Assembly: GCA_949130485.1 (NCBI GenBank)
Contig: OX422185.1
Span: forward strand, 14,197,011 to 14,261,010
Reading direction: 5' to 3'
DNA: 64,000 bases
From: Agelas oroides
Taxonomy: Eukaryota > Porifera > Demospongiae > Agelasida > Agelasidae
A program made the translations under genes and the position numbers. This document shows, piece after piece, positions 10,313-64,000 of this stretch. Each line of letters begins with the position of its first letter. Within the stretch, counting starts at the first letter, position 1. The notes under the pieces are model-generated. The model was not told where the DNA came from and made no database searches. It worked only from the letters and a program-made list of their open reading frames with translations.

Positions 10313-11131
10313 AAGTCACAAAAAAGTTTTCTGAATGAAAACAAGTGCATGTAGGGATGGAACCCTCAAAAACCAACCAAACTAGATGGGAATGACACCA
10401 CAACAATTTCACACCATCCCTACATCTTGTGCCATTTTGCCAACTATACTTTGTGTTTGTTAGTTGTGTTCATAGGAGGGTTGTTGAAGGCAGTGGGATG
10501 GGTAGTGCTGGGTGTGGAGTGCATGTTGATGTGCATGGGGGGTGAGTTATGTTGTGGGTGGCTGTGATGTAGTTGCTATGCTGAGGATGGCAGGTATGGT
10601 CTGTCTTGAATTAGTCTTGCAAGCCAGACCCTTTCTGCGCAGCACCAATTGCGTTCAGTATGCGGCACACAGAGGGAAGAAGTTTGATGTTTGGATTTAC
10701 AATTTCACTTCAAAGCATTTATGACGATTCTTAGTGCCTTCCTCTGCGTGCCAATACTGAAAGCGATCTGCACTGTGGAACGGAAAGGGTCTGGCTTGTG
10801 AGACTAGTCTTGAATGCAGAAACTGTCAAGTGCATGAGCTGGGTCTGTTGGAGTAAGTGATGTTGTGAAATTTTATTGCTGCTGAACATGGCAGATATGG
10901 ATTGTCTTTATGTAAAAGGCTGTGGAGTGAGCAGCGCTAACTACAGCTAGTATTCATTTAGTGGGTGTGAATAGACTAGAGAGTTTACTGGTGTGCATAG
11001 TTGGCAAAATGGCACAAGATGTAGGGATGGTGTGAAATTGTTGTGGTGTCATTCCCATCTAGTTTGGTTGGTTTTTGAGGGTTCCATCCCTACATGCACT
11101 TGTTTTCATTCAGAAAACTTTTTTGTGACTT
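10313..11131. repeat. element with 135-bp near-perfect inverted arms
   Basis: Arm 10313-10447 is almost the exact reverse complement of 10997-11131 (outer end AAGTCACAAAAAAGTTTTC). The loop contains a complete younger MITE at 10612-10806. A flanking target duplication was not identified. Confidence 0.8.
10612..10806. mobile_element. TAGTCTYG-family MITE with perfect 9-bp target duplication
   Basis: Ends TAGTCTTGCAAGCCAGACCC / GGGTCTGGCTTGTGAGACTA. The 9-mer GTCTTGAAT lies on both sides (10603-10611 and 10807-10815). A segment of its interior (10678-10737) recurs inverted at 11245-11307. The intact duplication marks a clean insertion. Confidence 0.9.
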
Positions 11132-13182
11132 GTTCCTGCTCTTTTTTTTTTGTATTGCTTTTTAGGAATGGTAAGAGAGAAGTGACATGGGAGGGTAGGC
11201 CGAGGGGAAGATGCATGGTGTGTACAGTATGATAGTAGAAAGAGCTAAGAATTGTCATAAATTCAAACGCTTTGAAGTGAAATCGTCAATCCAAACATCA
11301 AACTTCGGGGGGTTTAGAAGTACAGTCCAAGCAAAGCCTCATACAAACCAAGTGAAAAGCAGATGAGTTTAATAAGGCTTTGCATGCAAGCTTATAAATC
11401 CTGTGCTCATTTCACGTGGACTACTAATGGGTTCACCGAAAAACTCTCCATAGACTGTCACCAGAGTATTGAGTCGTAAGACCCCATTACAGAACTGTTT
11501 GATGGTGAGTAGCTATAGTCTAAATCGGTTTGAAACGAACGCAAAGGGGTCTGTGGAGCTGAACAACTGCCAGTTCTGTGGCCACCTCTATAGTGCAGAA
11601 GTTTGGAATGAAGCCATGTACTGTTGACTCGGTGCTACTAGAGTTTGAGTATACCAAGCTACCAATAGGCTGCCACTTGCTTCGTTGGAGGAATATGAAG
11701 ACTCAGGCACAACACAAAAGGAGGATGTTAAGAAGACACCAGCCAAAGTGCTACCATCAACTCGCAGTAAACATTGTATGTGTACTATATGCATGTAAAT
11801 GACTATAACAAGCAAATTTGAAATGTGAAAGTTGACAATAAAACTTGAAATTGAATATCAGTGGCTAGTGTTCAGGTTAGCTTCAGGCTATTTATCACCA
11901 CGGCTACAAATTTTTGAGTTATTACTTGCCACAGGAAGTCACTGATTGAAGCATGATTAGCTGAAGGTATTTCCCCAAGAAATCACACCGGCATTACTTG
12001 TTCTATCAAGTTTTGTGTGAGTCACAGTGGAAAACTACCTTAGTTGAACTGTCAACCAAATTTCACCATGGGAACATAGCAGCAAGTACCCTCACTGTTG
12101 TTGTATCTTATTCCAAGTTCACTATCAATTCTTGTGACTACTTCCTGAGTAACACAGGTTTGTTTCAACCTAAGGATACCATTGCCTGAACTCAGCTAGT
12201 TCACAAATCACCTTTCCTCATTATCTTCTCTTGTAGTCACTAGATTGGTTACTGTGCATGCACCCTGGGGTTAAAAGAGGTCACATTTGAGGTCACATTA
12301 GTCCATGATCTAAAGCACTATCAGGCCAAATACGTTCAGAATCCTAGACAGTATGGGGAAGCGTTCAGACATCTTGCAATTTTTTTTGGTTTTCACTAAG
12401 GTATAGCTTCTTGGTGCTGGATGTGCCCTTGTTGCTATGGTACCCTGTGTACTCTATGACAACCCATTCATCAATACTGCCAGCTGTGGCATGTAGGGAG
12501 TGATCTATTCTGAACCATGAATTCTATTTCCTTGCACTGGCTTTAGCAAACTTGTTTCTCCAAACATGATACAATGGAGTACCAGTAACTTTGTTAGGCC
12601 ATGGGTTTCAGCATAGATTGCCACTATATACTGTATAGTATTCATGGAATATTAATTTTCATTATTTTTGTGCTAAAATTTTTCACCCATGAAGTTTCGT
12701 AGATACTGCCACTTAGGTTTGGTTCTGTTTCGCTACCTGCACTTTGTTGACAATGCCCTTGATCCATGGGGTCCTCTTTTTTAAGCTGTCTTGCATGTGT
12801 TGATGATGAAGTGAATAGAGGACTAATGACAGACACATGAGCAAATAAGTGAGGCCATTTCCTCTCATTTACTGCAAAAGACAACCACCTGAAACAAACA
12901 GATCAGTACAGTTGCCATTCTCACATTGACGTGGTAGTTCTTCAACATTGACTTTCCAAATCTCATTATAGATGGGTAACATCTCAGGCATGACTCATTG
13001 CTAATGCACTCCACGTTGTTGAAAAGAAATTTTATTCATTTGCACATATGCTCCAAGTTCAAAGCTCATATTAGCCTATCACTATTGCACTATCAAATAT
13101 AAAACAATAATTCTGGGGGGGTTCTTGAGCTTTTCTTTCCACCCACAAATGTAACCTGCTATACAGTAAAGTAAAGAATGCT
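11132..13182. other. no gene seen; contains an inverted MITE fragment
   Basis: At 11245-11307 there is an inverted copy of the interior of the 10612-10806 MITE. The rest is AT-rich without recognised genes. Short frames at 11578-11815 overlap on both strands and have no splice context. Confidence 0.5.
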
Positions 13183-13757
13183 CTTCACATTAACTGTACT
13201 GCAGACCGCAGGGAGAGCTTCCAAGAACCAAATAGTGTACTATATACTGTATGGTTAGTAATTTTCACAAGGGATTTATTTTGACATTTTTTTGCGAGTC
13301 AAGAGCTATTCACGAAAATCAAAATCACAAAATTTGCAGTGCCCATGTGCGCCGGTGAGCAAATCGCATTTCAATCTGGCACTAATTCAAACTATCTAGC
13401 CATCCTAGCTCCAAGAGTGGAAGCAATCGCCTCTATGAACACCCTGGGTATGAGGCTATATTATGCTCAGTCTGGCTGTGGCAGCGTATCTTTTTTCCCC
13501 ATACTGGAACGAAGAGCTCTGTAGACGATTCTAGACATGCTCTTAGCTTTTAGCCGTACAGCTAACGTCCAGGTTCCAAATTAAATGACCATGAAAATTA
13601 AAACCACAAAAATATCTGAAACCTGGATGTTGACCTGTTTTGCGAAATTTGTACCCACAAAAATTACCAACCATACAATAGTAGGAAATGTTCTTAACAT
13701 TAACTGTACTGCAGACCACAGGGAGAGAGCTTCCAAGAACCAAATAGTGTACAATAT
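13183..13757. repeat. pair of ~63-bp direct repeats
   Basis: 13183-13246 and 13693-13757 share the block ATTAACTGTACTGCAGACC..CAGGGAGAG..CTTCCAAGAACCAAATAGTG. They may be ends of one diverged element. The interior has no gene. Confidence 0.65.
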
Positions 13758-15170
13758 AGCGGGAAATTCATGGCACAAGTATTTCATGGTTGTTATATTA
13801 GCTAAATGAAGATTTCATGGTTGCTAGCTCTTTAGTAAAGTGTTGTTGGGTGTATAACAGTCTTGACAGTCTTGCTGATGTCAGCAGTTACCACAATACA
13901 AGAAGCAAACAATCCAACAATACCAGGCACTATTCAGCTAGCCACAGTGCTGTGTCAACTGTAAATTATGAAATCAACTTGAAAATTTTATATTCATGGT
14001 AGTAACATCCTCAGTTGTTGCTTAGCAACCAAATTTCAACCAACCTTTGTGCTCAGCTGCTCCTTCTGGGAATGCAACTTGTTTGTTGAATGTTACCTCC
14101 AGCAACCCACTGCTTTACCCCATTATCACCTCTCCCCTTTCCACTTCATGTTATTCATGTTGAGGGATTTGGTGGCTAAGCAACATCCAAAACTGTTGCT
14201 AGGCAGCCGACATAGCATTGGAATTTTAAGCCATTTGTTGTACAACATGCACACTCAGTGTTCACTTGTATTCAGCTAATTTTGTGCAGCTGCCAGGGAT
14301 TACTGTTGACTGTCAATATCACTGGACTGGACTACTGGACTGGACTGACCTTTTTGCACTAAAAATCATTTTAATGGCCTATGCTGACAGTAGTCCAGTT
14401 CAGTGATTATTGGCAACCATTACTGTTTTAGTCCACCATTGAAAACATGTAGACTTCAGACAGAACTTGTTGCAAGTTGCAGGTATTCGTAGATCTGTTC
14501 ACCTAGTAGAATTACTCTATTTCAGTGTCAAGGCTAGAAGGAAGGTGTGGGTAGGTACCTGCATCATTGTGGTATTCTACAATACCTGTTTTCCTCATAT
14601 TATGCTCCATTCACCACTTGTGTCCAGTGATGTCACGACATGTCGTGGTTGTCCAACTGTCGTTCAGAATTCCTTAGTTATCAAACCACCACTCAATTGC
14701 TTGTGAATATTGATTATTCAGCGTGTCAGTACGAACCCTCCAAATCTTTGTCTGCAAACAGCTATCAGTAAATATCATAAGTCACTACATTGTGTGGGCA
14801 TAATGTATGTCTCCATGTGGTTTGTGGTGCATTACAGGTTGTATGTGATACCACAGAAATAACAGTGCAGACTGTCTTATTTGTACAATGAAATTCCAAT
14901 ACTCTTTATCATGTACCTGTAATAAGGTTATCTTCATTGAGGTGGGATATGGCTGCACATGAATGTGTGGGTATACACCTGTACCTTGTGCTGAGCAACT
15001 AGCCCCATTTTTCCTCATATTATGCTCCATTGATATCACCCACTTTGCTCAGTCATTATGCTTGCAAATAGTAATTGTTGAGCTTGTAAATAAGGAACAA
15101 AACTCTGCATCGTCTCTATCCATGAGTGCAGTGGTAGATTTCTCACGCTGCACCTTATATATGTAATAGT
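13758..15170. other. no gene seen
   Basis: AT-rich spacer without recognised element ends, RNA genes or splice-bounded exons. Confidence 0.5.
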
Positions 15171-15281
15171 TATAGCACAGGTGCCAGGGATTTATGGCAG
15201 TAAACAGACCGAGTCCGAGGGCGTAGCCCGAGGACGAGGTTTGTTTACTACAGCCATAAATCCCTGGCCACCTGTGCTATA
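15171..15281. repeat. 111-bp hairpin MITE
   Basis: TATAGCACAGGTG and CCACCTGTGCTATA pair at the ends. The arms continue through CCAGGGATTTATGG and GTAAACA to a GC-rich loop (GAGGGCGTAGCCCGAGG). Confidence 0.8.
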
Positions 15282-15995
15282 ATTATTATATATCCCACCT
15301 GATTGGTCCTTTGTTGTTATTATTGTAAACACATCTGTACATGTGCAAGTGTTTACAGTAACTTCGATATTATTTACTGTCACAGAAAAATGATGTAAAA
15401 TCTGTACTATAGTCTGACAATGTAGTAGACTGTAAACTAAAAATACATGGAGAGGGAATTATGAGCCATAATTTCCCTTGTAGCCTTGAGGGGACAAATT
15501 ATGACAGTTAAAGTCCACTCTGGCCTATGCATGAAGTATAGTAGGTGGGATATATTGGGGAATAATTTACACACAGCATTTATCATAGACATCATACATA
15601 TGTAACCCAGATTTCCATTACGCACTGCACTAACAGTACCTTATTTTCCTCTCGGCAATACTGTATGGGGTAACTAGAACATGTAGAAGTAGGAACTTCT
15701 CACTTCCTAGTCTAAACAGAGGTCTCTGAATTCCATCAGGTCACTTGTACTACATGTGCTCTTGATCTGGTCCACCTCCTCTAGACATGTCCATTTTTGC
15801 TATGGTATCTTCACTCCTTCTACCACATGTATATTTCCTTATAAGGCAAGTTCACCTTTTGTATTCCTCTGTCCTCTATCCTGCCTGATCAGGAACATAC
15901 CATAGCAATCAAAATGTTACATAATATAATATCTTGTTATCTCATGTTGACACTAATGTTGTAAGTGTTATTGTGCTCTCTTTCTTGACCTCCAG

Positions 15996-16083
15996 TCTTG
16001 GTGCTCGGGAGTTTACTGAGGAAGGAAAAGCACAGCTACGACAGGCAGCAAAAGAAAGGAACCCTGACTTTGTTGAACTTAAG
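15996..16083 (+). CDS. candidate internal exon, unknown protein
   Basis: A polypyrimidine tract and CCAG acceptor (15984-15995) precede an 88-bp open stretch that ends at AAG with a GTTTAT donor. It reads one leftover base, then LGAREFTEEGK...NPDFVELK: charged and coding-like, probably alpha-helical, ending in phase 0. I do not recognise the protein. No partner exon was found within several kilobases on the same strand, so it could be a stray exon of a gene with long introns or a captured fragment. Confidence 0.4.
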
Positions 16084-16500: not shown

Positions 16501-16572
16501 AATATCTCTCTTGTACAGTGGTGTTGCCTATAGTCATCTGCTATAGGTAAAAGCTAGAGCAGATGACTATAG
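16501..16572. repeat. hairpin element
   Basis: CTATAGTCATCTGCT (from 16529) pairs with AGCAGATGACTATAG (to 16572). The adjoining ATATCTCTCTTGTACAGTGG is shared with the 43.4 kb hairpin, so both belong to one family. Confidence 0.7.
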
Positions 16573-17282: not shown

Positions 17283-17450
17283 TGAGACATTTTGCTATTC
17301 AGCCTATTGTGACAACACCCTCCTTCTGGGTGCATATGAGACATTTTGCTATTTAGCCTATTGTGACAACACCCTCCTTCTGGGTGCATATGAGACATTT
17401 TGCTATTCAGCCTATTGTGACAACACCCTCCTTCTGGGTGCATATGAGAC
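17283..17450. repeat. 54-bp tandem repeat, ~3 copies
   Basis: The unit begins TGAGACATTTTGCTATT and includes GACAACACCCTCCTTCTGGG. Because 54 is a multiple of three, both strands show repetitive open frames, which are artefacts. Confidence 0.9.
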
Positions 17451-17538
17451 TATTTTGCTATTGTTGGGGGTGGAACAATCTACTGTTACTGATGTTTTTG
17501 CTGAGAGAGTGAGAAATAAATCCATGGAAATAAATCCG

Positions 17539-19247: not shown

Positions 19248-19550
19248 AATTTAATTTTACATCAAACTCCAAATGTATCTCATAAGACAAGTGCTAAATC
19301 ATTACCACCTGAAGTGGCGTAGAAACAACTTTAGATTGGAGTATGTACATTGTGTTTCTAAGTGCATGACTTTACCCACATTTCAACGAATCATGAAGTC
19401 TAAATTTGGCACAAGAGACTTCATGATTCTGATTGTCAGATAGCACTTGATATGTTGAATAAAACTTTGTCTGGTGAAGGTTGAAATATAAAGCCTAAAC
19501 TGAATGGTGAACTATTTCTAAACACTAACATCACAGAAAGTGTTAAGTAC

Positions 19551-21235
19551 CTTCACAAGTTCATCTGAGTTCTCGACCAGGCAGACTTGGACTGCAAACA
19601 AACTGGCATCCTTGCCAACTCTCGGACAGAAAAATACCAGCGGAACATACTGTCGAATATTGTCAGTACTTGCACTTGAGAGTGTAGAAGTCTGACTTTG
19701 CTCTGTCTGGCTAGCTTGTTGAAACGTGTCCCTGATTTCTGGCAACTCAGAATCTTCATCAAATTCATCGGTAACGCTGAGTTTGTGTCGGTCATGGTAG
19801 CCGGGGCTTGCACTACTGGTATATCCTGTATCATTGGATTCAGTGCTGTTGCGATCAGCTGTTGAGTTGGGGTTGTTAGTCTGCTCACTGCTTCTTCTCA
19901 GTTCTGAGCTTGTGTCATCTCCTTCTCCCTTATCACCTGAGTCAAACATAGCCGGAGGATCGACTAAAATGTTGTCAAGCGAATTCAGACTGGTTACCGA
20001 GTTGTACAGGAAGGAATCGCTGGGTGGGCGTGCAGGAAGCTCGAACACGTCTGGAGAGAAGGGTGAGGGAATTACTCTTTCCTGTGTTGCCTGATTTTCA
20101 CCATCTTTGTCCTCTGGTACTGAATCAACAAGACTCAGTTTGGGTTCAGAAATACTGGCACTATTGCTACCATTTTCTGACAGCGCCTCGGGACTCTTCA
20201 ACCCCCCTAGCGTAACTTTAGAATAGCCTTGGTTTGCCCTCACTTTACAAAGCACACGAGGAGGACTGGATCCTGCACTAGGACCATGTCTCGTATTTAT
20301 TTCAGAGGTACTACTTTGTTCCACTGCAAAATTAGGGCCAACTTTTGTGACATCCTCTTCATTGATCGTCCCATTTGCTCCTCCATTCTCATTTTCACCC
20401 TCCTCATCTGAACTATCAGCTCCGTCCTGCTTGTTGACAAAGAGTGGTTTCTCATGTCGTAGTGTGATTTTACGGTAGCGGAATGATCGTGTCATGTTTG
20501 AGCGTAGAAGAGTGGAATTATCATGCCCAGGTCGACCCATTTCTGGTACAACAGGTAGTTCAAGAAGTTTATGATCATTTTTCGGGCTTTGCTTTTGTTT
20601 CGACCGAGGGCTTGATGATTTCATTGCCTTTTTGCGCTGAAGTCCAGCCGATTTCACAACGAACAGCTTGTCTTCCATCACCCCACCTTGGTCAGTTTCA
20701 TCACGTTCTTTTGCACTTGTGGTACTTTTGGCAGCCAAGGAGGGAGGCGGAACTTTACTAGGTAGATGTTCAAGTGGAAGAAAACTTGAGGCAGCTACAT
20801 GTATGTCCTGTGGGCTACCGATACTCACTGCTCTTTTGTGAGTTGTATCTTTTTTTCGTTCTGAGATAGACATTGGTTTGATTGCAAGTGGAACGGATGC
20901 CAGAGCTCGGCTTCTATCTGGCGAGAACACCGCTGGTGGGTTGCTTCCAACAAAAGATATCCCATTGTGAACTGCGAATGAGCTGGGACGTTGAGGAGGG
21001 GCTGGAGACAATTCCACACTGCTGTCTTGTGATCCCCGCAGGTTTATTGTCTCTGCACTGTCTCGAATGTAGTGCAACAGGGTCATTGTGCTCTTTGATG
21101 CGCCACTTCCATACAGAGTTTTGCTTGGGGAGGTGACTGAGAACCGGTGGGTTGATACGGATGGTTTCACTCTGTGGACAGCATTGTGGTCCTTCGAGTG
21201 CCGCAATCCAATGTCCAACAACTCAATGGTTTCAC
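19551..21235 (-). CDS. large exon A of serine-rich, mostly disordered protein (unknown function)
   Basis: An uninterrupted 1,685-bp exon lies between acceptor TTGTTGTGTGCAG (just above 21235) and donor AAG|GTACTT (below 19551). It starts in the middle of a codon (one base comes from an upstream exon) with ETIELLDIGLRHSKDHNAV, and ends in phase 0 at ENSDELVK. Most of it is Ser/Pro/Asp/Glu-rich and probably disordered, with basic patches (SSSPRSKQKQSPKN) and acidic runs (DSSDEEGENENGG). The last ~40 residues (YVPLVFFCPRVG..SLFAVQVCLVEN) look folded and continue into exons B and C. There is no signal peptide or membrane segment. The residues before the acceptor (MSSYIFTFPPL..) are intronic. I do not recognise the family. 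It could be a signalling scaffold, but that is a guess. Confidence 0.8.
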
Positions 21236-23047
21236 CTGCACACAACAAAGGTGGAAAAGTAAATATGTAACTTGACAATCATGGTAGCAATGTTTCTTAT
21301 ATTCCGATACTGTGATCAAGGGGAATATACCAGGAAACCACCAATAACCTCCATCTTTCAATTTCTGTATGTGATATGGGAGGCGTCAATACCCTATTCC
21401 AATTACTAAATATTTGTTAGTTCTTTTTTGTGTATGCTATGAGATAGTATAGTCACAAGTAGTATGTGGGGGAAAAGATCTCTAACCTACTTAGTAACCA
21501 TTGTCCCTCTCCTTGTTGCAAGTGTGAGCAAGCAATACACTTACTGAAATGTCATATAGCTAAGAGTTTACCAGTGAAGTATCAGATCACAGCACACAGG
21601 CTGTGGCATGTGGCTAAACAAGGTTTGTTACTCTACTGTCCACATAAGGATTTACTTGCTTAGAGAAAATAGTCATTTGCAAAGAATTGCTGATTATAGT
21701 TTGAAACAAGGTACCATCACAGGATGTGATTATTTATAATAACATCTTAATTAGAGCAAATACAGTGAACACAAGCAACATCAAGACAACTGAAGACCAC
21801 TAAATGATCAACACACTTGTTAACTACCTAAACACACCCCCACTAACTTCGTTCATGAACAGTATCAAGTATTATCAGTGGAGTGCAGCTTCCTGGATAT
21901 GCACACTTGTACCAGGAACATACTTGTACATACACACTACAGGGTTTCATTCTACAGTTTTCCTGGTAAGTGAAAACATTAGTATAAGGTTGTGTGACTT
22001 GACTGTGTGATTCTGTAACTAGTACCATACATAATAGTTGAGATGGAGCAGCATGAACCCAAAGGATAAATGCTGTTTTGTCTGGGGAAACAACTTATTT
22101 GTTCAATGTCACCTCTAGCAACTTATTGCAAATAAGATGTATGAGGTCACATCTTAAATGCAAAACTAACAGTTGGTCAGAGCATGTTCTTATTCCCCCC
22201 TTCCCTTGCTCCCCCCTACCCTCTCTGCCTTCATCATCCACCACCCTGTTTTCTAACCCAAGATATCTAGCAAGTGACAGCAAAGTTGCTATGGACAACA
22301 TCAATGACCTGTACGAGTGGATAACAATTGCTACAGTACTCATGCAAGTTTGAGTGGGTGGGAGAGTGGGCACTGAAACTGTCACAGGAAATTGTTACAA
22401 CTTTCACTGGGACCAGCTGGGGACAGTTTTGTGGCTACTACAGATAGCCCAATGTTGGTATCAGCAGTATATATTCATAGCTTGTAGTGGTTTGGCTAAA
22501 TAAAACAAAGCCCACTGATGACCACAGTGTGTTGACAGTTATTCCCCATCCCTCCCGTCCCTCCTTCTTCCCCCACCCTCCTCTCCCTCCCTCCTTCCCA
22601 CAGGGTTAGTCATACCTACATTAAAGCAGGTACGCCTTCTTCCCACCCTTCTCTCCCAGGGCAACCAGCAAAATATTTACATGTGCTGGTACATGTGCTG
22701 GTAATTAGAAATGAGTTGCTATGTACAAATCCCTGACCTTAGGGAAAGTTAGGTAGGTGGATGTCAACATTAATTTAGTCACATCAAAGAACTTGAGCCT
22801 CCTTTCCTCCCACTTGGGGATAGCACTGACTGAAACTGAGGTTTCTAGAAGGATGTCCCCCTTAACTGGTTTCATAGCAACCAGTATGTTGCCTGTATGT
22901 GCATGGTTGTAGCAGTGATGTACGAAATGAGAAGAACGTGTGAGATGCTTCTACCAACCATATGGATATGGATGGCCACCTAACGGCCTTTCTTGCATGA
23001 AGTAGCAACTCAAATATCTCGTGTCAGCTAATAGCACAGCCAAGAAC
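21236..23047. other. upstream intron or intergenic, no exon recognised
   Basis: Exon A begins at an acceptor, so its upstream exon lies at higher coordinates. None was identified. C/T-rich patches occur at ~22190-22260 and ~22545-22640. Confidence 0.5.
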
Positions 23048-29379: not shown

Positions 29380-29764
29380 TAGTCTCGCAAGCCAGACCCA
29401 CTTCCGCAAAATAAAAGGGATGGGTCTGGTGAACTGCGTATACAAGCCATGTTCCACTGGAATGCAATTAGATGGATGATGTAATAAGATTTCAAATAAT
29501 GGAGTCTTGAATTACCTGTTGCGGAGTAAGCATGCTCCCCGAGGAGTTTTGTCGAAGTGTTTTTACAGCTCCAGCCATAGTGGAAAAGATGCCCTAGCTC
29601 AATTTCACCATTTTCAAGACTGCTTTTGCTACTCAAACGGTGATGTAATGTGTCATGTGACAAAATGTGATTGGACCGCACTGTACAGTGCGGCGGGACA
29701 CGTGTATACGCAGTTCACCAGACCCTTCCCTTTTTTGCGGAAGTGGGTCCGGCTCATGAGACTA
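29380..29764. mobile_element. TAGTCTCG-family MITE with 9-bp duplication (8/9)
   Basis: Ends TAGTCTCGCAAGCCAGACCC / GGGTCCGGCTCATGAGACTA over 385 bp. Flanks agatagtgc / agctagtgc differ at one base. Inverted arms continue inward (CTTCCGCAAAA.. / ..TTTTTTGCGGAAG, then GGTCTGGTGAACTGCGTATAC). Confidence 0.85.
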
Positions 29765-30819: not shown

Positions 30820-30907
30820 TAGCCTTGTTCCCAGGCCTTCTCACTGTCCAGTTTTTGATCGCTTGTGATCAAAAACTGGACGGTCGGAAGGCCTGGGAAT
30901 GAGGCTA
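30820..30907. mobile_element. 88-bp nearly perfect palindromic MITE
   Basis: TAGCCTTGTTCCCAGGCCTT / AAGGCCTGGGAATGAGGCTA enclose GTCCAGTTTTTGATC and its complement with almost no loop. Flanking 9-mers ttgctggct / gttctggct agree at 7 of 9 positions. Confidence 0.85.
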
Positions 30908-35330: not shown

Positions 35331-35548
35331 TAGTCTCGCGTGGCCACACCCCGTTCCGCAAGAGAGGGAAGGGGTCTGGTAACCTTCGTTGCAGCCGCTC
35401 GTAGCACAGGAATTTCATTTACTCGCATTGCGTAAGCGCTAAGGCCGCATAATTATCTCAAGAAGACTGACGAAGCAGCTGCTTGTGGTTTCACAGTTGA
35501 TTTACACCTTGTAAAACTTGCGGAACGGGGTGTGGCCACGCGAGACTA
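35331..35548. mobile_element. TAGTCTCG-family MITE with perfect 9-bp duplication
   Basis: Ends TAGTCTCGCGTGGCCACACC / GGTGTGGCCACGCGAGACTA over 218 bp. GGTCTCCTA lies on both sides (35322-35330 and 35549-35557). Inner arms CCGTTCCGCAAG / CTTGCGGAACGG. A clean, probably recent insertion. Confidence 0.92.
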
Positions 35549-37947: not shown

Positions 37948-39160
37948 GCCACAAGCATTTGCCCCCTCCTCCCCTCCCCATCATGTGTCAACTCTCTCCA
38001 CCACAAGCATTCCCCCCTCCTCCCCTCCCCCTCATGTGTCCACTCTCTCCGCCACAGGCATTGCCCCCCTCCTCCCCTCCCCCTCATGTGTCCACTCTGT
38101 CCACTCTGTCCGCCACAGGCATTGCCCCCCTCCTCCCCTCCCCCTCATGTGTCCACTCTGTCCGCCACAGATGTTTGGTCTCTTCTCTTCCCCTTCCTCA
38201 CGTTCTTCTTGTATGTAATTCTTTCCATTAAAACCATTTGTCTTCCCCTCCTCCCCTCCCCCCTCATCCTTCTCACATTCTCTGCACCACAAACATTTGC
38301 CCTCTTCTTCCCTTCTCCTCCTTATCCTTCTTGCATGCACCCTCTTCACCACAAATATTTTATGTTCACTTCTTCTGCTTCTCCTCTCATCCTTCTCGCA
38401 TGCACTCTCTCCACCCAAACAATTTGTCCTCCCCTCCTCCCCCTCATTGTTATCACATGCATCCCTTCTGCCACAAGCATTTGCCCCTCCTCCACAGCGC
38501 GCACGTGACCGGGTGTTCTATTTTAAGTACGGTTCAATAATTTTGCCCGGACCACATGCTTCTATTGGAGTTACACGCTCTTACTCTAGCTGCCCGTTCT
38601 CATGTGCTCTTGGCCACAAGCATTTGCCCCCTCCTCCCCTCCCCCTCATGTGTCAACTCTCTCCACCACAAGCATTCCCCCCTCCTCCCCTCCCCCTCAT
38701 GTGTCCACTCTCTCCGCCACAGGCATTGCCCCCCTCCTCCCCTCCCCCTCATGTGTCCACTCTCTCCACCACAAGCATTCCCCCCTCCTCCCCTCCCCCT
38801 CATGTGTCCACTCTCTCCGCCACAGATGTTTGGTCTCTCCTCCTCTCCCCCTTCCCTCACGTTCTTCTTGTATGTAATTGTTTCCATTGAGACCATTTGT
38901 CTTCCCCTCCTCCCCTCCCCCCTCATCCTTCTCACATTCTCTGCACCACAAACATTTGTCCTCTTCTTCCCTTCTCCTCCTTATCCTTCTTGCGTACACC
39001 CTCTTCACCACAAATATTTTATGTTCACTTCTTCTGCTCCTCCTCTCATCCTTCTCGCATGCACTCTCTCCACCCAAACAATTTGTCCTCCCCTCCTTCC
39101 CCTCATTGTTATCACATGCATCCCATCTGCCACAAGCATTTGCCCCTCCTCCCCTCCCCC
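37832..39160. repeat. 665-bp tandem duplication inside the C/T region
   Basis: 37832-38496 recurs at 38497-39160. The junction lies inside MITE A, so the second copy starts with a truncated MITE (38497-38612). The duplication therefore happened after the MITE inserted. Confidence 0.85.
38497..38612. mobile_element. truncated copy of MITE A
   Basis: Carries only the right half (GCGCGCACGTGACC..TTGCCCGGACC..AGAGCA-type end), produced by the 665-bp tandem duplication. Confidence 0.85.
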
Positions 39161-41284
39161 TCGTGTCCTCCCCCTCGTGTCCACCCTCTCAGCCACAAGC
39201 ATATGCCCCCTCATGTGTCCACCCTCTCTGCAAGGATTTGCCCCCTCCTCCCCTCCCCCTCATGTATCCACCCTCTCCGTAAGGATTTGCCCCCTCCTCC
39301 CCTCCCCCTCATGTATCCATCCTCTCCGTGAGGCTTTGCCCCCTCCTCCCATCCCCCTCATGTGTCCACCCTCTCCGCAAGGATTTGCCCCCCTCCTCCC
39401 CTTCCCCTCATGTATCCATCCTCTCCGTAAGACTTTGCCCCCTCCTCCCATCCCCCTCATGTGTCCTCCCCCTCATGTATCCACTCTCTCCACCACAAAC
39501 ATTTGCCCCCCTCCTTCCCTCCTCCTCATGAGTCCACTCTCTCATCCCCCTTATTTGCCCTCCTCCCCTCCCCCTCATGTGTCCACTCTCTCCACCACAA
39601 ACATTTGCCCTCCTCCCCTCCCCCTCATGTGTCCACTCTCTCCACCACAAACATTTGCCCTCCTCCTCCTTCATTCCCTCACGTCCTTCTTGTATGTACT
39701 CTTTCCACTGAAACTGTTTGTCCTCCCCTCCTACTATCCTTCGCACATCCTCTGCATCACAAATATTTGTCCTCTCCTCCCCCTCTCTCCCTTCATCCTT
39801 CTCACATGCACCCTATCCACCACAAATACTTGTGTCCACTTTCTCCTTCTGCTCCTCCTTCATCCTCCTCGCATGCACCCTCCCCACTTCATAAATTTGT
39901 CCTCCCCCTCCTCCTTCTCCCCCTCCTCCTTCTCGCATGCACTCTCTCCAACACACACATTCGATTTGATTGGTCCTCCCCCCTCATCCCTTTCCTCCTC
40001 GCATGCACCCTCCCCACTTCATAAATTTGTCCTCCCCCTCCTCCTTCTCCCCCTCCTCCTTCTCGCATGCACTCTCTCCAACACACACATTCAATTTGAT
40101 TGGTCCTCCCCCCTCATCCCTTTCCTCCTCGCATACACCCTGCCCACTACATAAATTTGTCCTCCCCCTCCTCCTTCTCCCCTTCCTCCTTCTCCCCCTC
40201 CTCCTTCTCGCATGCACCCTTTCCAACACACACATTCGATTTGATTGGTCCTCCCCCCTCATCCCTTTCCTCCTCGCATGCACCCTGCCCACTACATAAA
40301 TTTGTCCTCCCCCTCCTCCTTCTCCCCTTCCTCCTTCTCCCCCTCCTCCTTCTCGCATGCACCCTTTCCAACACACACATTTGATTTGATTGGTCCTCCC
40401 CCCTCATCCCTTTCTCCTCGCATGCACCCTCCCCACTGCAAAACTTTGTCCTCCCTCTCCCTCCTCCTCTCATCATTATTCTCCCATGCTCTCTCTCCAC
40501 CAAACACATTGTCCTCCCCCTCCCCCCTCCTCTTATCATTATTCTCGCATACACTCTCTCCACCACACACATTGTCCTCCCCCTCCCTCCTCCTCTCATC
40601 ATTATTCTTGCATGTACTTCTCCACCACACACAACACACATACATGTATGCCCTCCCCTCCTCCTCTCATCATTATTCTCGCATGCACTCTCTCCACCAT
40701 ACACATTTGTCCTCCCCCTCTCCCTTCTCCTCTCATCATTATTCTCACATGCACTCTCTCCACCACACACATTGTCCTCCCCCTCTCCCTCCTCCTCTCA
40801 TCATTATTCTCGCATGCACTCTCTCCACCAAACACATTGTCCTCCCCCTCTCCCTCCTCCTCTCATCATTATTCTCCCATACACTCTCTCCACCACACAC
40901 ATTGTCCTCCCTCTCACTCCTCCTCTCATCATTATTCTCCCATGCTCTCTCTCCACCACACACATTTGTTCTCCCCCTCTCCCTCCTCCTCTCATCATTA
41001 TTCTCGCATGCACTCTCTCCACCACACACACCCTCTCCCTCTCCTCTCATCTTCCCTACATGAACTCTCTCCACTGAATGTATTTGTCCTCTCCCTCCTT
41101 CCTCTCCATCCTTCTCACATGCATGCATATATGGCCCCCTTCCACAGTGGATGATATTAGATATAAAAGGTGTGTGGACAATTTGTCCGAGCACAATCAA
41201 TCTTGTTCTGCCATTCTCCACTTTTGATCTGCCATCATTAACGTAGCATAATCACCAAAAAAAAAAAACTCAACAAAAGAATGC

Positions 41285-43550: not shown

Positions 43551-43614
43551 TAGTCACATTCCCAGACCCTCAGTACGATAAACGCATCGTACTGAGGGTC
43601 TGGGAACGAGACTA
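43551..43614. mobile_element. 64-bp hairpin MITE with perfect 9-bp duplication
   Basis: TAGTCACATTCCCAGACCCT / AGGGTCTGGGAACGAGACTA surround a loop of a few bases. TGGTCGATT is present at 43542-43550 and 43615-43623. The smallest clear member of the 9-bp group. Confidence 0.92.
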
Positions 43615-48058: not shown

Positions 48059-48626
48059 TAGCCTCGTTCCCAGGCTCTTGTGCGGGGGAGGAGGAAAGAG
48101 AGCCTGGTACACACTTCGCGCATGCGCCAAATTCCCTTGGTAACCTGCATACTACTCCGCTACACTAAAATTACGGTCAATTTCTGTTTACCTTCTGAAA
48201 GGCTGCACTGCCTGGTTATGCACCCTGTAGGATACATACGGGCGGTTTTGAAGTCAACAACGATATCGCTTTGACGGTAACAGTCTGCATTGCTTCGTTC
48301 GAGGCGATCGGTAAACTTCAAAGGGAAAGATTGCGTCAGTCACGTGCCGCAGCGTTTAGCTGGAATGGACAAATGCGTGGACAATTCCTGCAAGCGAAGA
48401 GCTGAGTACCTTCGTCGCTCCCTCGTCATCGTCTACACAGAGCGTGGTCAGTGGCAGGCATCTTTTATACGGGAGAAGTCGGCGTGCCTCGCGGAGGTTA
48501 GTGTAACGGAGCAGACTTTACAGAAATTTCCAAATTCCCAGAAATCCTGGGGGAACTGAGCATGCACAAACAGTGTACCAGGCTCTTTTCTCCCCGCCCA
48601 CGCACAAGAGCCTGGGAACGAGGCTA
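48059..48626. mobile_element. TAGCCTCG-family element carrying an exon, perfect 9-bp duplication
   Basis: Ends TAGCCTCGTTCCCAGGCTCT / AGAGCCTGGGAACGAGGCTA bound 568 bp. CATTTGCTG is duplicated exactly at 48050-48058 and 48627-48635. Unlike the short hairpin members, it has a unique interior that includes a 44-codon ATG exon with splice donor. This is the arrangement expected of a MITE that captured a gene fragment. Confidence 0.9.
48365..48496 (+). CDS. exon-like captured coding sequence, unknown protein
   Basis: ATG at 48365 opens 44 codons in phase 0 up to GAG|GTTAGTG, reading MDKCVDNSCKRRAEYLRRSL then VIVYTERGQWQASF. The frame also stays open upstream to 48290, but the ATG matches the conserved start of the decayed copy at 29166. 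It is basic, with two cysteines near the start (CVDNSC). I do not recognise the family. It lies wholly inside a transposable element, so expression would depend on the element or the insertion site. Confidence 0.5.
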
Positions 48627-50649: not shown

Positions 50650-52753
50650 TAGAGTTGGGCGGTATGCCATTTGGGTATGTACGATTATCACAGTGTATTT
50701 TATCACGATATACGGTATTATCATGATATATAGAACAGAAAGTTACACAATAAACACAAACAATTCATGGCATGTTTTTTGACAGAAATATTAGCATGTT
50801 CACATTGCTTGGCAATAATCTAGCACGGTGTGGATCTACAGTGTATCCACCAGAACTAAATGCACGTCCGATGGGACACTAGTTCCACAAATGCACAAGT
50901 ATTTTCTGACCAGCACTGAAAGCAATGGGAATCTGTCACTATTTTGCTTCCACCAGTCTAAGGGATCCCTGCTTGTTTCCTCTAGTGGCAGGTCACTATA
51001 TGCTACAATCTCTTTTGTTGCTCTTTGATGAGAAGTAAGTTCAATAGGACTCCTCACAGGAACCTTTTTCAGGGTAGCAGCAAGCCCCTTAGCTCTTTTT
51101 GCCGGAGGAGGAGTTTCTTCTTCATGTTCATGAGTGGGAGGCGTAGTCTTGTCAGCCAAAGCAGCAGCTTCTGACATTAACGCCTCAAGAGTACCTTCTT
51201 TATCTTCTAGATACTCTGCCTTGAATCTAGGATCCAAAAAGGAGCACTTGTCTAGAAGCACAGCAATTTCTGGTGAGTTGTAACGTGTGCTCAAGTCTCG
51301 TCTGATGATGTCCTTCATTTCATTGATCAATCCATTGCTATCCAGGTCAACATGAAGAAGATTTGTCAACAAGTGGTTGAGTAGGGGACGGAGAGCTGAA
51401 ACTGTCACGTGGTTTTCACCAGACAACGCATCAGTAAAAACTGACAAAGGTTTGAAGACCTCGACCAGAGACTCCAAAGTAGAAAATTCATTCTCTGAAG
51501 GCATTCGATGCCAATCCTTCCTATCTTCTGCAAGGACAGCACAAATGGCTTGTTGCTGCTCCACAATTCGTGAAACCATGTTGTAGGTTGATCCCCACCT
51601 TGTAGCTACATCCCCTATTAGCTTGTGCTCTTCAAGCCCCAGTTGCACTTGCTTCTCTCTGAGGTCTCTAGTTTTCTTCCAACTGCGGCTGAATACCTCC
51701 ACTAGAGAACAGCATCTTTTAACAGCTCTATGTACACGCTCCACATTAAGTGCTTTGTTTATGGCCAGATCCAGATTGTGTCCAAAACAGCTGATACGAA
51801 TCCACTCCAAGGAGTTGAAAGCAGCAATGAAATTTGACCCATTGTCAGTTGTAGTAGCCACAAGCTTTGCAAGATCAAGACACCAATTTCCCAGCACGTC
51901 TACAAGAGCCTCCGCTATATTCTGGCCACTATGATCTTCAAACAGAGGAACTGTCTCGAGAGTGATGGCCTGAAGTGACCATGAAGGGTCAAGGAAGTGA
52001 ACTGTCAGGCTGAGGTAAGGATGCTTGGCTCGGCTAGTCCACAGGTCAGTTGTGGCAGCAAAGAATTCCATTTCAGCAAGCTTTGTCTTCACCACTGTGT
52101 CTCTCACCTCAACACACAGCTTGGGTATTTCAACCTCAGTGAAGTTCTTCCTTGATGGTAGGCTGTACCGAGGATTCAGCTTAGAGACAAGGAATTTGAA
52201 ACCACTCTTTTCAACGGTGTACACGGGCTGCATGTCCTTTGCTAAGAAGTAAGCAACAGCCCTGTTAAGGGTGGTTGCTTCGGCAGAATGGCGGGAATAC
52301 AGCATGCTTCGCTCAAGAGTCTCGCGTAATGATGGTTGTTTAGAAGACTCACCCTTACTCTGTACACCTTTAGAAGCCTCTGCATAAAGATCGGCATGAT
52401 GGTCCCGTAGATGAGCGAGAAGATTGGAGGTGTTTCCAGATTTCGCACGGACACTCTTTTTAAATGTCCTACATACGGGCTCGTCCTCCATTTCTTGAAG
52501 AACAACTCCATTTTCATTCACTCGTAGCCCAAAGTAGTTCCATACCATGCTTTTTGAGCCCTTCTTTTTTACTAAATTTTGCTCCGCCATTTTCTTTGTG
52601 CAGCATTGAGCATGTGGTGGGTTCGAAGGTCACTGTGGCTGACGCATGCGCAATTGTGATATATCGCAATATCGCGCTATACCGAATGAGTGGTTTTCTG
52701 CTCGATGTGATTATCGCGATAATATCGAAATACCGATATACCGCGCAACACTA
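50650..52753 (-). mobile_element. complete hAT transposon, perfect 8-bp duplication
   Basis: Left terminus TAGAGTTGGGCGGTATGCC and right terminus (inward) TAGTGTTGCGCGGTATATC. GTGTACAT is duplicated exactly at 50642-50649 and 52754-52761, as for hAT insertion. The 2,104-bp element carries one transposase gene on the minus strand. Intact ends and duplication suggest a fairly recent insertion, although the transposase has since been frameshifted. Confidence 0.95.
50765..52590 (-). pseudogene. ZBED-type hAT transposase, frameshifted near C-terminus
   Basis: ATG at 52588-52590 opens 584 codons. A BED finger spans residues ~17-69, but its second cysteine is Phe43 (C40-x2-F43, then H60 and H64/H65). 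The RNase-H-like transposase core keeps TTDLWTS (Asp182), TTTDNGSN (Asp249), CFGHNLDLA (268-276) and ATRWGST. FLDPRFK and DPLDWWK mark the hAT family dimerisation part. At about 50877 one base is missing after CGTSVPS, and the main frame stops at 50836-50838. The conserved continuation (RAFSSGGYTVDPHRARL) follows in the next frame to a TGA at 50765-50767. The terminal dimerisation segment is therefore not made. Plus-strand and alternate frames here are shadows. Confidence 0.92.
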
Positions 52754-58290: not shown

Positions 58291-58439
58291 ACTCATGCTT
58301 TGTGCTTCACCTTACAGTACTCGAAGTGGCTTAGAAGGTGCAACTTAAGATGAAGTACACCTGAAATTGGGAGGAGAGAATATAGTTGTTGCTGTAGTTA
58401 TTATTATTTCCTCTAAATTCCCCTATTACAGAGCTGTTG

Positions 58440-58915: not shown

Positions 58916-59074
58916 TGTTTTACGGTATGGTGCAATGTTGTGATGATACACAATGTCATGTGATTATTTCAAACTATATAATAATCCATTCACAAAGTTT
59001 TGCACATAACCACAATCCATTTACAACCTTGTAATGAACCTGTGCATGTAGACTACAATCTCTCCACAAGGTTG

Positions 59075-59400
59075 TGTCTAACTTGTAATTATTCAACAGT
59101 CTTCTCAAAACCTATACACAGTTACCAACAACCTCTCCACAAGGTTGTGTCTAACTTGTAATTATTCAACAGTCTGCTCACAACCTATACACAACCTCTC
59201 CACAAGGTTGTGTCTAACTTGTAATTATTCAACAGTCTGCTCACAACCTATACACAACCTCTCTACAAGGTTGTGTCTAACTTGTAATTATTCAACAGTC
59301 TGCTCACAACCTATGCACAATCTCACAACAAGGTTGTGTCTAACTTGTAATTATTCAACAGTCTGCTCACAACCTATACACAATCTCACAACAAGGTTGT
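59075..59400. repeat. 63-bp subterminal tandem repeat, ~5 copies
   Basis: Unit ACAAGGTTGTGTCTAACTTG plus TAATTATTCAACAGTCTGCTC and ACAACCTATACACAACCTC. The 85-codon frame across it is a 21-residue repeat artefact. Confidence 0.92.
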
Positions 59401-59769
59401 AACATGCATGTAAGGTTGTGCCATGGTTGTTACAAGGTTGTTACAAGGTTGTTACAACCTAGTTTTTTCTATATGGGTACAGTGTTCTTCGGTTCTCTTT
59501 CCCACGCGAGTAGTTTGCCAACAGCTGCGTGGCAATCATGAACACAGCAAACTTTTCGTACTCCACGTTTTCTCGGCGTACATAGTCTCGTTCCAGATCA
59601 CCAAACCTGGGAACGTAGGATCGATTTAATACTGGGTATCCTAGACCATGAAAATATTTTTACAGTACCCCTCCACACTGCAAACCCTTGATAGCCATCA
59701 CCATGGTAACATGTTTTTCTCTGTTATTGAGACACATGTGGAGAGTCTAAGAGTTCCTTAGTCAGTTAA

Positions 59770-60255
59770 CCCTTTAACCACCGCTAACGCCATTTGACTT
59801 TGGCCACATGTTATCAGTTGGCCCAATCTGTTTTGAGGATAGGTTTTGCGCTAGCAAAAGGGCGGGATAGGTTGGTGGGTTTCAGCACGGGGTGCCATAC
59901 ACATGGCAGCTGCTTTAACTGGCTGTAGAGTGGCCTTAGTTGGCACTGGCTGGACCATTTCTCACCTTGTTAGCACAAACGGGTGTAGAGACCACTCCTC
60001 TCCCCCTGTAGGGCACCAATTCTGTTACTGTAGGCAGTTTTAAGTCAGGAGGAGCGCACGCTGGTCGGAGAACCCTGATCATTGAAAGCTCACTAATGGT
60101 GGGTGTGGTCAAGGTCAGACCACCCAGAGAATAGCTCAAAGAAGTTTTAGCTCAAGTTTCCAGTGCTAGCTCCCAGCAGAAGTGGAAATATAGACCAAAG
60201 AAGGTATCCATAGCCTAAAAACAGACATGTAATGAAAGGCCTACGGTGGTTAAAG
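59770..60255. mobile_element. piggyBac-like MITE (TTAA target)
   Basis: CCCTTTAACCACCG and CGGTGGTTAAAG are inverted ends flanked by TTAA (59766-59769 and 60256-60259). Non-autonomous, 486 bp. Confidence 0.82.
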
Positions 60256-60670
60256 TTAATGAGGACAGGGACAATGGCTGCCATGTATGTTTCACACAGT
60301 CATACAAACCGCAATCAGTGTGTACATGTGAAAAATGTCCATGTGCAGGTACTCCTTTGCCCTCACATACATGACGGTAACCAAGGGTGATAGCATGTAG
60401 GCACCAGTCATTGATGTTGAAATTCAGTGATGTCACAACCAGGTCATTTCATTGTCACAGCCAATGGGTATTGGTACCAGGGATATTAAGAATAGCCTGT
60501 GAACAAGTCCTCCCTCTCTTTGTCACAAGATTGAAGGAGAGGGTGTAGCATTGCCGCCAGCTGTAGTATCGCTGCTATACAAAATGGTAGCTATGATACA
60601 GCCATTGCTTGGCAGTAGGCAGTCATAAATTTTTATTAAGATTTTCTATGATTGAGTTAATTGTCATTAG
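60256..60670. other. no gene seen
   Basis: Contains a TAGCCTGTGAACAAGTCC-type fragment at ~60494 (similar to ~44668). Otherwise unexplained. Confidence 0.4.
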
Positions 60671-60768
60671 CAGCCATGCAACCTAAATTAGTAAGATACC
60701 TGAAAACTAGTATCTCCACCTCTAAGAGACATTACTGCATGCTACATCAAAACCTGAACATTCTCAAA
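60671..60768 (+). CDS. candidate exon 1 of a coiled-coil protein gene
   Basis: An acceptor-like TTGTCATTAG precedes 98 bp ending in a consensus donor AAA|GTGAGT. ATG at 60676 gives MQPKLVRYLKTSISTSKRHY then CMLHQNLNILK, ending in phase 0. It could be a first or second exon. It is followed 81 bp downstream by another exon-like block on the same strand, which strengthens both calls. Confidence 0.4.
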
Positions 60769-60849
60769 GTGAGTATATTATGTTACATATGTTCTCCCAA
60801 CATGCATACATTGATTATATCCATCCTCCTCCCCACAACTCTCTCACAG

Positions 60850-60938
60850 CTGAGAAGGCAAGGGAGATACTGAAGGAGGTCAAGCAGACTCAGGAGATAT
60901 TCAAGAAACAACGGGAGACAACCAAACTGGAAGCAGAG
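60850..60938 (+). CDS. candidate exon 2, coiled coil
   Basis: A pyrimidine-rich tract and ACAG acceptor (60846-60849) and donor GAG|GTACTT bound a Lys/Glu/Gln-rich stretch reading EKAREILKEVKQTQEIFKKQ then RETTKLEAE, a clear coiled-coil pattern. Using the alternative AG at 60853-60854 gives phase 0, which joins exon 1 without a shift. With the first AG one extra base is needed. No downstream exon was found before the next element. Family not recognised. Confidence 0.5.
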
Positions 60939-62088
60939 GTACTTTGTACACATTACAGCTTTGTGCCTGTAGCTGTGTACTGTACAGTGAGTTACTTTCA
61001 CTGGAGAAACCTTTTGTTTGCAAATTTCACGTTTCTCCGGCAATTCACAAAACTGTTACCTACATAAAATTCACCTAAACCCAGAGTCAGTCCTGAACAA
61101 TGTCCATAGTCTATTCTCTGCTAGTCATGGCCTCCCTATGTTATTACTAGAGTGCTGATTTTGTGCTACCAAAGCCAAATGTCTCAGACTGTTATTGGTG
61201 GTTGCTCCTGTTTCAAGTACCGTCACCCTTGAAACTGTGACAGACTTGGGATGTTACCGCCCTCTCACTGACAAGGAAGAATTTTCCTAAATGCTGTTCA
61301 CCAGAGTCTTAACTTCATAGCAGTCCATGATTTGCAGCGAATATTTGATTAGTTCGCATCCAAATATTTAGGCTGGACTTAGAAAATGCTGATATGCTAA
61401 TTTGCCTTAAAGTTGCGATGAACAACCTGTCCTATCTCAGAATTCAATAAATGCGCCTGAATGTCAGCGTTATAACTCTAGAGTGCTTGGAGGTATTTTA
61501 GCGCTTCAAAAGCCTATGGAGATACCAAAGACCAGGCTATACACAATGCTCTTTTGGTCATAACAGCTCTAGCAGCTTATAATCCACACCATCCAGAACA
61601 AAGCCTTCACATAAACTCTCTTGCGTCAAATATCTGCTTACTGACGGCCCTCAAACTCACCGTTTTCGGTTACTAGTCTCCTAGCACAAGTATCTAGGTC
61701 GACTCGATGGCAATTTTCAAGCAGCACTCGAAATGTGGGCGCTACATAAAATTTTGAGTAGCGTTCTTCGTAAACCACGACCGAAAAGGCCATTTTCTGA
61801 TGGTTTGTCCAGAACTTTTTTGGCAAAACTTGACGAGTCGACTTCGAAAATTTAGTACGGAAGGCCGTTGAGCTGTTATCTTCCGCAGAAAATAAAAGTA
61901 GTTCGCTAAAATTGACGCAAAGTTAGTAACGGTAGGAATGCATTTGGACTTGCGGGTATACATCATGAATATAATTATACATAAGCGTGCGCACAGCTTG
62001 TTCATCGTAACCTTAATAAGAACCTCCCTGCATTGTCTCTGGTGTAAACTTAAACCCCCCCTAATTAAGTTGGGACCTCCTAACAATC
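60939..62088. other. no gene seen
   Basis: No splice-bounded exon or element ends recognised. Overlapping frames on both strands at 61740-62230 have no support. Confidence 0.45.
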
Positions 62089-63562
62089 TAGCCTTGTCCC
62101 CAGGCCACTCCCAGATTTTATCTCGCAGCTGTGGAGAAAACTGCAGAAGGCCTGGGACCATTACTATGTTACAGACCAGAAATGGTACGTGGTGGACTCG
62201 GTTTCGTAATGATGGTAAAACGTGCCCACGCAATAAGAAACCAGTACAGCAAGCGATCGAACAGTAAAACTACCTAGACGTTTTGCCAACAGCTACAGAC
62301 TTTGTAAGTACCAAGTGACTAACGAAGAATGTGTAGACATAAGTGGAAGGCGTTATGCGTGTACATCGACTGAAGAAAGCAGCAGGCTGAGGGCAAGCAC
62401 AGAGCACAAAATAAGATCTAATATTTGGTAGGCCATTTGTCAGACCAATATCAAATTTGATTGGCCACTTTTCCAAATTGCTTGGACAATAAGAGGAACA
62501 CCCGCTACCACTCGCTCTAGCATGCTCTTGCTTCAGCAAACTCATTGCATAAATATGCTGGTCTGCTCATCCATGGTTGTGAATGTTGCTGGTGCATACT
62601 GACTCGGCACCAAGAAGCCATCGTTCACTGAAGTTTCTTCTAGTAGCGATTCTTCTCTTGATCTTGGCACATACACTGCATCGAAGCTTCGTGACTATCT
62701 TTTTTCTACCGCTCAGTTCCGTGTCACAATCAAGCCATGTGACTATCAGGCACTCATGATCCATATCCGATTCCATTTTTGGTACGTAGCATACACTACA
62801 TTCCTTTTCTTGGGCTCTGGGGCCGACGCATCACTCGAACTCTGGGCTGTTTTCATGCTGCACTAGCTATAAACGCACTACTACAACTGACTACATAACC
62901 ACGAAGTGCTGATCTAGCAATTTGACTCCACGTGCTTGTAGCGCGTGTGCGCATGCCTAGACCCCACCCATAAAACTCTTGTGATCGATTGTTCGGAAGG
63001 TAAGACTGACCGCGTAACATTTAACGCGGTCACTTTAGTTAAATGTCCGGAAATTGGCCGATGGCCGGCTGTTATTTTATGCTCTGCAAGCATGTCGCTC
63101 TGTGTCAAAGTGAGTGTCTGTACTCGGGCCACTATTCTCAAGGAGGCTCAGAGCCGGGGCTAGAACAGCTTAGATAATTTGTACATACCTACAAGTAGCC
63201 TTGCCATCTGTTTCTCCGTCCTTGAGGATAGTGGCCCGAGTGCAGACACTTTAATATTTTGACATGGAGGGACACGCTTGCCCTCAGCCTGCTGCTTTCC
63301 TCAGTCGACGTACACACATAACACCTTCCACTTATGTCTACACATCCTTCATACTTGCAAAGTCCGTAGCTGTAGGCAATATGTCCTGGCAAACTTCACT
63401 ATTTGATCGCTTACTGGCCACTTATTGCGCGGGAACGTTGCCATCATTACGAAACCGAGTCCACCATTTCCAGTCCATGACATAGTAATGGTCCCAGGCC
63501 TTCTGCTGAGTTTTCTCCACAGCTGCGAGATAAAATCTGGGAGTGGCCTGGGGACAAGGCTA
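62089..63562. mobile_element. TAGCCTYG-family element with ~300-bp inverted repeats and gene cargo
   Basis: Ends TAGCCTTGTCCCCAGGCC / GGCCTGGGGACAAGGCTA. The arms (62089-62396 against 63273-63562) are diverged inverted copies. Flanks ctaacaatc / ctaacagtc match at 8 of 9 positions, as expected for a 9-bp duplication. The 0.9-kb middle contains a zinc-finger-like coding fragment on the minus strand and unique sequence, so this is the largest cargo-bearing member of the 9-bp group in the window. Confidence 0.85.
62500..62776 (-). pseudogene. captured zinc-finger-like exon (ZNF862/KRBA2-type, hAT-associated)
   Basis: ATG at 62774-62776 opens MESDMDHECLIVTWLDCDTE, then VTKLRCSVCAKIKRRI (Cys33, Cys36), RRNFSERWLLGAESV and TSNIHNH. 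This order of C-x2-C, RNFS..W..G and TSN...H is the N-terminal module of ZNF862/KRBA2-like, hAT-derived proteins. A TGA at 62567-62569 interrupts the frame, and the expected continuation ADQHIYAMSLLKQEHA follows directly in the same frame. Further on the resemblance ends, so only the first module was captured. Assignment is from motif memory without a search. Confidence 0.55.
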
Positions 63563-64000
63563 CTAACAGTCTTTGATACTGTGGTTTGTGTGTACTTTGC
63601 GTGTGCTTGGAAGTCTTTGATTCGATGTTTGCATGTTTGAACCAATTTTCTGGGTATTCGTTTGCTAGGACATCCACATATCTGGATTGCCAAAACCAGC
63701 ATTCGTTGCAGCCCTAATGATTGTCACGTAGGTCATAGCTCTCGTGACTTGTCACTCATGATAGTCTTGGGTTACGTTCCCATGTAGTTAGGGTTCACAC
63801 AATTCTCAACAAAAAAATTTCTGTGAAAGATCATCTGTTTTCAAGTTTTCTCTTGTGAAGGAACAGTACAGTACATTACACTCTGTGGTTTGTGTAAGTG
63901 TATTCCCAGTCTCGTTCACAGACCATCAGTATGGTACTGGGTCTCACTGAGGGTCTGGGTGAGTGTATTCCCAGTCTCGTTCACAGACCATCAGTAGGGT
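63563..64000. other. no gene; short direct repeat at the window edge
   Basis: GTGTATTCCCAGTCTCGTTC occurs at ~63898 and ~63964 (64-bp offset), with GACCATCAGTA..GGTCTGGGT between, resembling the TAGTCTCGTTCCCAGACC hairpin family. The window ends inside this repeat. Confidence 0.6.

Follow-up and report, generated by a model that had tools for sequence, protein, structure and literature searches.

Miniature inverted-repeat elements with TAGYCT ends and 9-bp target duplications in the genome of the sponge Agelas oroides

A 64,000-nucleotide stretch of the Agelas oroides genome (contig OX422185.1, positions 14,197,011 to 14,261,010, forward strand; hereafter the window) carries members of a group of elements that begin TAGYCT, end in the inverted form of this motif and are flanked by 9-bp direct repeats. 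These are non-autonomous DNA transposons with terminal inverted repeats (TIRs), that is, miniature inverted-repeat transposable elements (MITEs), of one end-type, mostly 50–830 bp long and with a 9-bp stagger. We read them as such because of their inverted TAGYCT ends, the 9-bp direct repeat, empty counterparts, differing lengths sharing mainly the ends, and nesting. Direct reading confirmed the coordinates of all seven elements listed in an earlier note on this DNA (Table 1), with flanking repeats that match at 9/9 positions in four, 8/9 in two and 7/9 in one. The TAGYCT start ascribed there to every member holds for six of the seven, the left end of the element at 43551 being TAGTCACATT (TAGTCA). 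Interiors described as unrelated are so in part only, the 1,474-bp member being a ~0.8-kb MITE into which 693 bp of foreign DNA are inserted.

The best evidence is the length of the duplication. In the window, 165 TAGYCT...AGRCTA pairs of 30–6000 bp show exact flanking repeats three times at k = 9 (chance expectation 0.0006), never at k = 5–8 and once at k = 10; the k = 10 pair (17354–17452, repeat TTTTGCTATT) is not counted as an element, its inverted ends matching at only 10/20 bases. A weight matrix of 20 bp, derived from ends backed by duplications, yielded 48 pairs in the window, eight of them with a 9-bp repeat at ≤2 mismatches and none with a repeat of 8 or 10 bp. We then consider sequence sampled non-randomly across the genome (L001–L008 were chosen around ends, L040, L041 and L048–L050 around known members), in which 64 nearest, deduplicated pairs with inverted ends matching at ≥13/20 and a span of ≤1 kb were scored. 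The longest exact flanking repeat was 0 in 29 pairs, 1 in 15, 2 in 2 and 9 in 18, and never 3–8 nor 10–14; the 18 exact repeats represent 17 distinct 9-mers. Allowing mismatches, the 9-bp repeat is found in 33/64 pairs (18, 10 and 5 with zero, one and two mismatches), and none is found at k = 10, 11 or 12 with ≤2 mismatches; k = 8 yields four pairs with one mismatch, at least some of which are copies of a single A-rich 173-bp array pair. The excess of matching 9-mers by which the earlier note had proposed to judge the group is therefore clear in the sampled sequence. An earlier scan of a 200-kb stretch had given 31, 8 and 732 pairs at repeat lengths 9, 3 and 0, but that stretch is mostly a tandem array of ~18-kb units and most of its 31 pairs are a few insertions copied, which deduplication to the 64 pairs largely collapses. 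By eye, the nine-mers at 31 sites display no strong target preference.

The genome-wide search proposed in the earlier note was run for both end patterns (259.3 Mb, 141 contigs). It returned 17,280 exact TAGYCTCGTTCCCAGRC ends (8,491 + 8,789 by strand) and 763 exact TAGTCTCGCAAGCCAGACC ends (385 + 378), and each reversed control gave 0. Among 100 of the 763 TAGTCTCGCAAGCCAGACC places (contig C1 and the start of C2), there are 15 neighbour pairs less than 1.5 kb apart, and all 15 face inward as TIRs, at 70–642 bp. Two exact pattern matches on viral contigs both lack a partner end and are taken as chance. A hand-collected set of 31 elements (9-mer with ≤2 mismatches) spans 50–3,443 bp, with 29 members between 50 and 831 bp, and the two larger ones (1,474 and 3,443 bp) both hold foreign inserts. 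The longest stop-to-stop stretch among elements of ≥300 bp, locus L037 aside, is 150 codons (frame lengths only; no family search was made on short frames). Inverted ends, a fixed-length duplication with empty sites, short length, high copy number and lack of a transposase gene make these elements MITEs.

Empty sites are present, in support of the proposal that these are genuine transposons making a 9-bp duplication. For each of the seven window elements the two flanks were joined, with one duplication copy kept, and searched genome-wide; the best 40 of 1,708 candidates were scored. All 40, as judged from alignment spans and not from the letters, cross the junction without an element-sized gap and depart from the query length by no more than small indels; 27 of them correspond to the element at 48059–48626, 9 to 10612–10806 and 4 to 43551–43614, and the joined flanks of the other four sites have no uninterrupted match among these 40. 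Likewise, paralogous units of the array lack the insertions with GTTCCTATG (5 spanning matches) and AAAACCACC (4), and a single 9-mer stands in the empty units viewed, three of each; the empty units of GTTCCTATG differ by six extra bases immediately left of the 9-mer. A third array candidate, TGTACATGT, sits in simple-repeat sequence and does not make a clean case. For 20 of the 23 elements tested, no spanning empty match was found within the sampled sequence. Members are also nested in one another, in the array (3161–3581 within 3119–3631) and at L037 (223–279 within 116–3558), and by our reading of L033 a 71-bp member appears to have inserted at the duplication flanking a 50-bp one.

The consensus of 52 ends is TAGCCTCGTTCCCAGGC, with an additional TAGTCT..CAGAC branch. 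Many ends carry three alternating AGYCT-type motifs, namely TAGYCT, CCAGRC and then an inner GYCTGG facing back. In elements of ≥180 bp, 24/40 ends repeat their bases 12–17 in reverse complement further in, compared with a shuffled mean of 0.8; a first count of 34/63 was dropped, as the far end of short elements falls within the search range. Bases 4 and 16 co-vary among 63 clustered ends (C-G 46, T-A 8, T-G 7, T-C 1, C-T 1, C-A 0; Fisher p 3e-6, relatedness ignored), and the C-A combination occurs once among 195 ends before clustering. Folding of six stretches gave four that were better than shuffles (z −3.7 to −12.2), and the element at 29380–29764, with the subterminal dyad CCAGACCC..GGGTCTGG, folds at z −3.7. 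We do not claim an AGYCT/AGRCT terminal hairpin as a structure, since the other two stretches are no better than shuffles. The simplest reading of the repeated AGYCT motifs is that they are putative binding sites of one protein.

The smallest members raise the question of what the mobile unit is. The two halves of the 64-bp window copy pair almost completely when folded, and the best 40 of 122 candidate places found with it match over the whole or nearly the whole length; of these scored places, 10 (counting the window copy) belong to the C3 array around it, and the 30 outside that array are 57–76 bp long. Micro-elements of 50–76 bp could be in-place deletion remnants of longer copies and not mobile units. 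Palindromic arms favour deletion, the duplication would persist through it, and one of three fetched relatives, L048 (63 bp), is without a 9-bp repeat (5 mismatches). Yet the 57–76-bp relatives recur at the 30 scored loci outside the array, the other two fetched copies, L049 (68 bp) and L050 (64 bp), share similar centres and are each flanked by a 9/9 duplication that differs in sequence between the two, and a length of 70–72 bp recurs in 4/15 inward pairs of the second end type. We take the 60–70-bp unit itself to spread, and regard in-place deletion, its main rival, as unlikely. Duplex DNA of 50–72 bp is stiff, and bending the two ends of such elements together should therefore be hard. It is conceivable, albeit rather improbable, that the group belongs to an unassigned transposon superfamily whose smallest members (50–72 bp) are cargo-free palindromes moving as units, their ends being brought to the transposase by cruciform extrusion. 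In that case, the AGYCT dyads found at many of the ends would be remains of, or a seed for, this cruciform route.

An enzyme supplied in trans would move the elements. A DDE transposase may recognize the ends, with the repeated AGYCT motifs as its likely binding sites, and excise the element, which would be joined to a target whose two strands are cut at positions 9 bp apart. The most probable class for this enzyme is Mutator-like, a guess drawn from the length of the target duplication. In the accessible part of PMC6446971, Mutator-like elements (MULEs) duplicate 8–11 bp, and 9 bp in most groups with a stated length, so that the Mutator-like affiliation raised in the earlier note is compatible with our data, although the MULE loci viewed here (0/8) do not have these ends.

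Several observations weigh against the interpretation as a whole. Even allowing two mismatches, 31/64 end pairs have no 9-bp repeat; many copies are thus decayed or mispaired. Of 40 ends, 16 were scored as lacking the inner dyad, some of them only through a one-base shift of the motif. To our knowledge, the TAG terminus matches no known MULE. No member encoding its own transposase was found among the loci and elements examined, and none of eight PF10551 (MULE) loci, out of at least 119 matches, is bounded by TAGYCT ends within the 7-kb stretches viewed, where ends farther out or strongly decayed would be missed. One MULE family, at L030, begins near GGAATGGGAGACAATT. At two further MULE loci (L033 309–5525 and L035 599–6556), the bounding inverted repeats start with a T-run and share CTTTCGACTTAG, with no clear target duplication seen.

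The elements could alternatively be MITEs of an undescribed, non-Mutator superfamily that has TAG..CTA termini and a 9-bp step, which we consider possible and distinctly less likely than a Mutator-like origin. Neither the MULE nor the Merlin and PF20700 loci examined include an autonomous copy, and five end strings of 14–17 bases had no match in a literature text search. This text search is weak, as transposon consensus sequences are rarely printed in papers; moreover, the tests covered only a small number of transposase families, each by few copies, and the MULE length most often given in the accessible part of PMC6446971 is 9 bp. Papers on MITEs with 9-bp duplications or on very short MITEs included none recognized as the TAGYCT group, most subscription papers lying outside the search, and eight-base end strings combined with transposon terms retrieved only papers unrelated by title.

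Merlin, the other superfamily named in the earlier note, is disfavoured. A Merlin-type transposase (PF12762) is present with 23 matches in the genome and could in principle serve these MITEs. The one locus of the 23 that was examined has a TIR of >100 bp, with its outermost shared bases near GGATCAATC, and no TAGYCT end, and Merlin duplicates 8 bp in the accessible part of PMC10045372. We regard Merlin as a very improbable source.

The earlier note had also called for a long member encoding a transposase. None was found, and the only candidate, L037 116–3558 (3,443 bp, target-site duplication (TSD) GGTATACTG), carries a PF20700 gene within TAGYCT ends, an arrangement that would make a PF20700/YqaJ transposase the driver. 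Its junctions instead indicate nesting. On the left, MITE sequence (compare L040 and L041) stops at its own TTAA, where GGTGGCGG begins; on the right, the gene region is joined to the MITE at a 4–5-base microhomology and ~370 bp of MITE interior are missing, which we read as a deletion joint. Elsewhere, GGTGGCGG adjoins TTAA on both sides of L038 (852–5963) and on the right of L039, whose left end lies outside the stretch covered, and TTAAGGTGGCGG with ≤1 mismatch occurred only in L037, L038 and L039 within the sequence sampled by then. Both L038 and L039 have PF20700 genes with a YqaJ domain downstream; L038 holds an uninterrupted 887-codon frame, and L039 has short derivatives of its own. 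YqaJ we take to have a lambda-exonuclease-like fold. KolobokE elements carry a lambda-exonuclease-like nuclease, and Kolobok duplications are TTAA (PMC9587614, accessible part). The PF20700 and YqaJ elements at L037–L039 thus read as KolobokE-like, L037 being an insertion of another superfamily within a MITE. A role of PF20700/YqaJ as driver is refuted for the L037 locus and has next to no likelihood otherwise. The 532-codon window frame was also rejected; among the matches listed, all lie on C3 in a tandem array, which is not a dispersed transposon.

The two end types together amount to ~18,000 exact copies in 259 Mb, and an enzyme with a 9-bp step has thus shaped this genome. Micro-elements of ~64 bp with duplications of their own bear on the minimum length of a transposon and on how its two ends meet, and the dispersed uninterrupted counterparts are a ready set for dating. 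The tandem array at L009–L028 (C1:1,280,001–1,480,000; ~18-kb units) is useful for presence/absence dating of insertions.

Other features of the window are collected with the elements in Table 1. The 693-bp insert of the 62089 MITE has further copies elsewhere in the genome; its ends are roughly CAGAGCAY, it may be hAT-like, and it has a possible 6-bp duplication CAAGCA. The hAT element has the TIR TAGAGTTG and a 584-codon frame with a hAT dimerisation domain. An 872-codon frame at 3219–5837 with reverse transcriptase and zf-RVT domains is LINE-like, and a 586-codon frame at 19518–21278 has no Pfam match. Outside the window, L042 holds a repeat with TGTCACAGGATATT ends and, in our own reading, a likely 4-bp duplication CCGT.

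Table 1 Elements and other features of the window (positions are those of the 64,000-nucleotide stretch)
Feature	Position	Strand	Target-site duplication (TSD) and remarks
TAGYCT element, eighth member, degraded, 950 bp	8960..9909	.	ATTGCTAGC/ATCGCTAGC, 8/9; found by weight-matrix scan
TAGYCT element, 195 bp	10612..10806	.	GTCTTGAAT at 10603-10611 and 10807-10815, 9/9
TAGYCT element, 385 bp	29380..29764	.	AGATAGTGC/AGCTAGTGC, 8/9
TAGYCT element, 88 bp	30820..30907	.	TTGCTGGCT/GTTCTGGCT, 7/9
TAGYCT element, 218 bp	35331..35548	.	GGTCTCCTA, 9/9; TIR 32 bp, perfect
532-codon frame, no Pfam match, repeated in large array	38556..40154		Among matches listed, all at C3:14.0-16.7 Mb
64-bp micro-element, near-complete palindrome, left end TAGTCA	43551..43614	.	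TGGTCGATT, 9/9
TAGYCT element, 568 bp, within dispersed repeat	48059..48626	.	CATTTGCTG, 9/9
hAT element, not a TAGYCT member, 2,104 bp	50650..52753	-	8-bp TSD GTGTACAT; internal contrast
TAGYCT element, ~0.8 kb without insert, imperfect inverted arms ~310 bp	62089..63562	.	CTAACAATC/CTAACAGTC, 8/9
Foreign 693-bp insert within 62089-63562	62401..63093	.	Borders by alignment, accurate to a few bases

Compared with known systems, the TAGYCT elements share single traits with several. The hAT element of the window also starts TAG and differs in duplicating 8 bp, against 9 bp in the TAGYCT elements. Eight bp is the usual hAT duplication in the accessible part of PMC12730594. P elements, which encode a P/THAP transposase, also duplicate 8 bp. 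KolobokE is co-resident, nested in a TAGYCT MITE at L037, and differs in having TTAA beside GG..CC ends; the TAGYCT elements have neither the TTAA duplication nor the RR..YY ends described in the accessible part of PMC9587614. Merlin is likewise a TIR element with a duplication near 9 bp, yet its length is 8 bp (PMC10045372, accessible part) and the Merlin copy examined has other ends. As for MULEs, the TAG..CTA terminus is unlike that of any known to us, and the eight loci examined are without these ends. The likeness to MULE/MuDR MITEs lies in the 9-bp duplication and in TIRs of very variable length (PMC6446971, accessible part).

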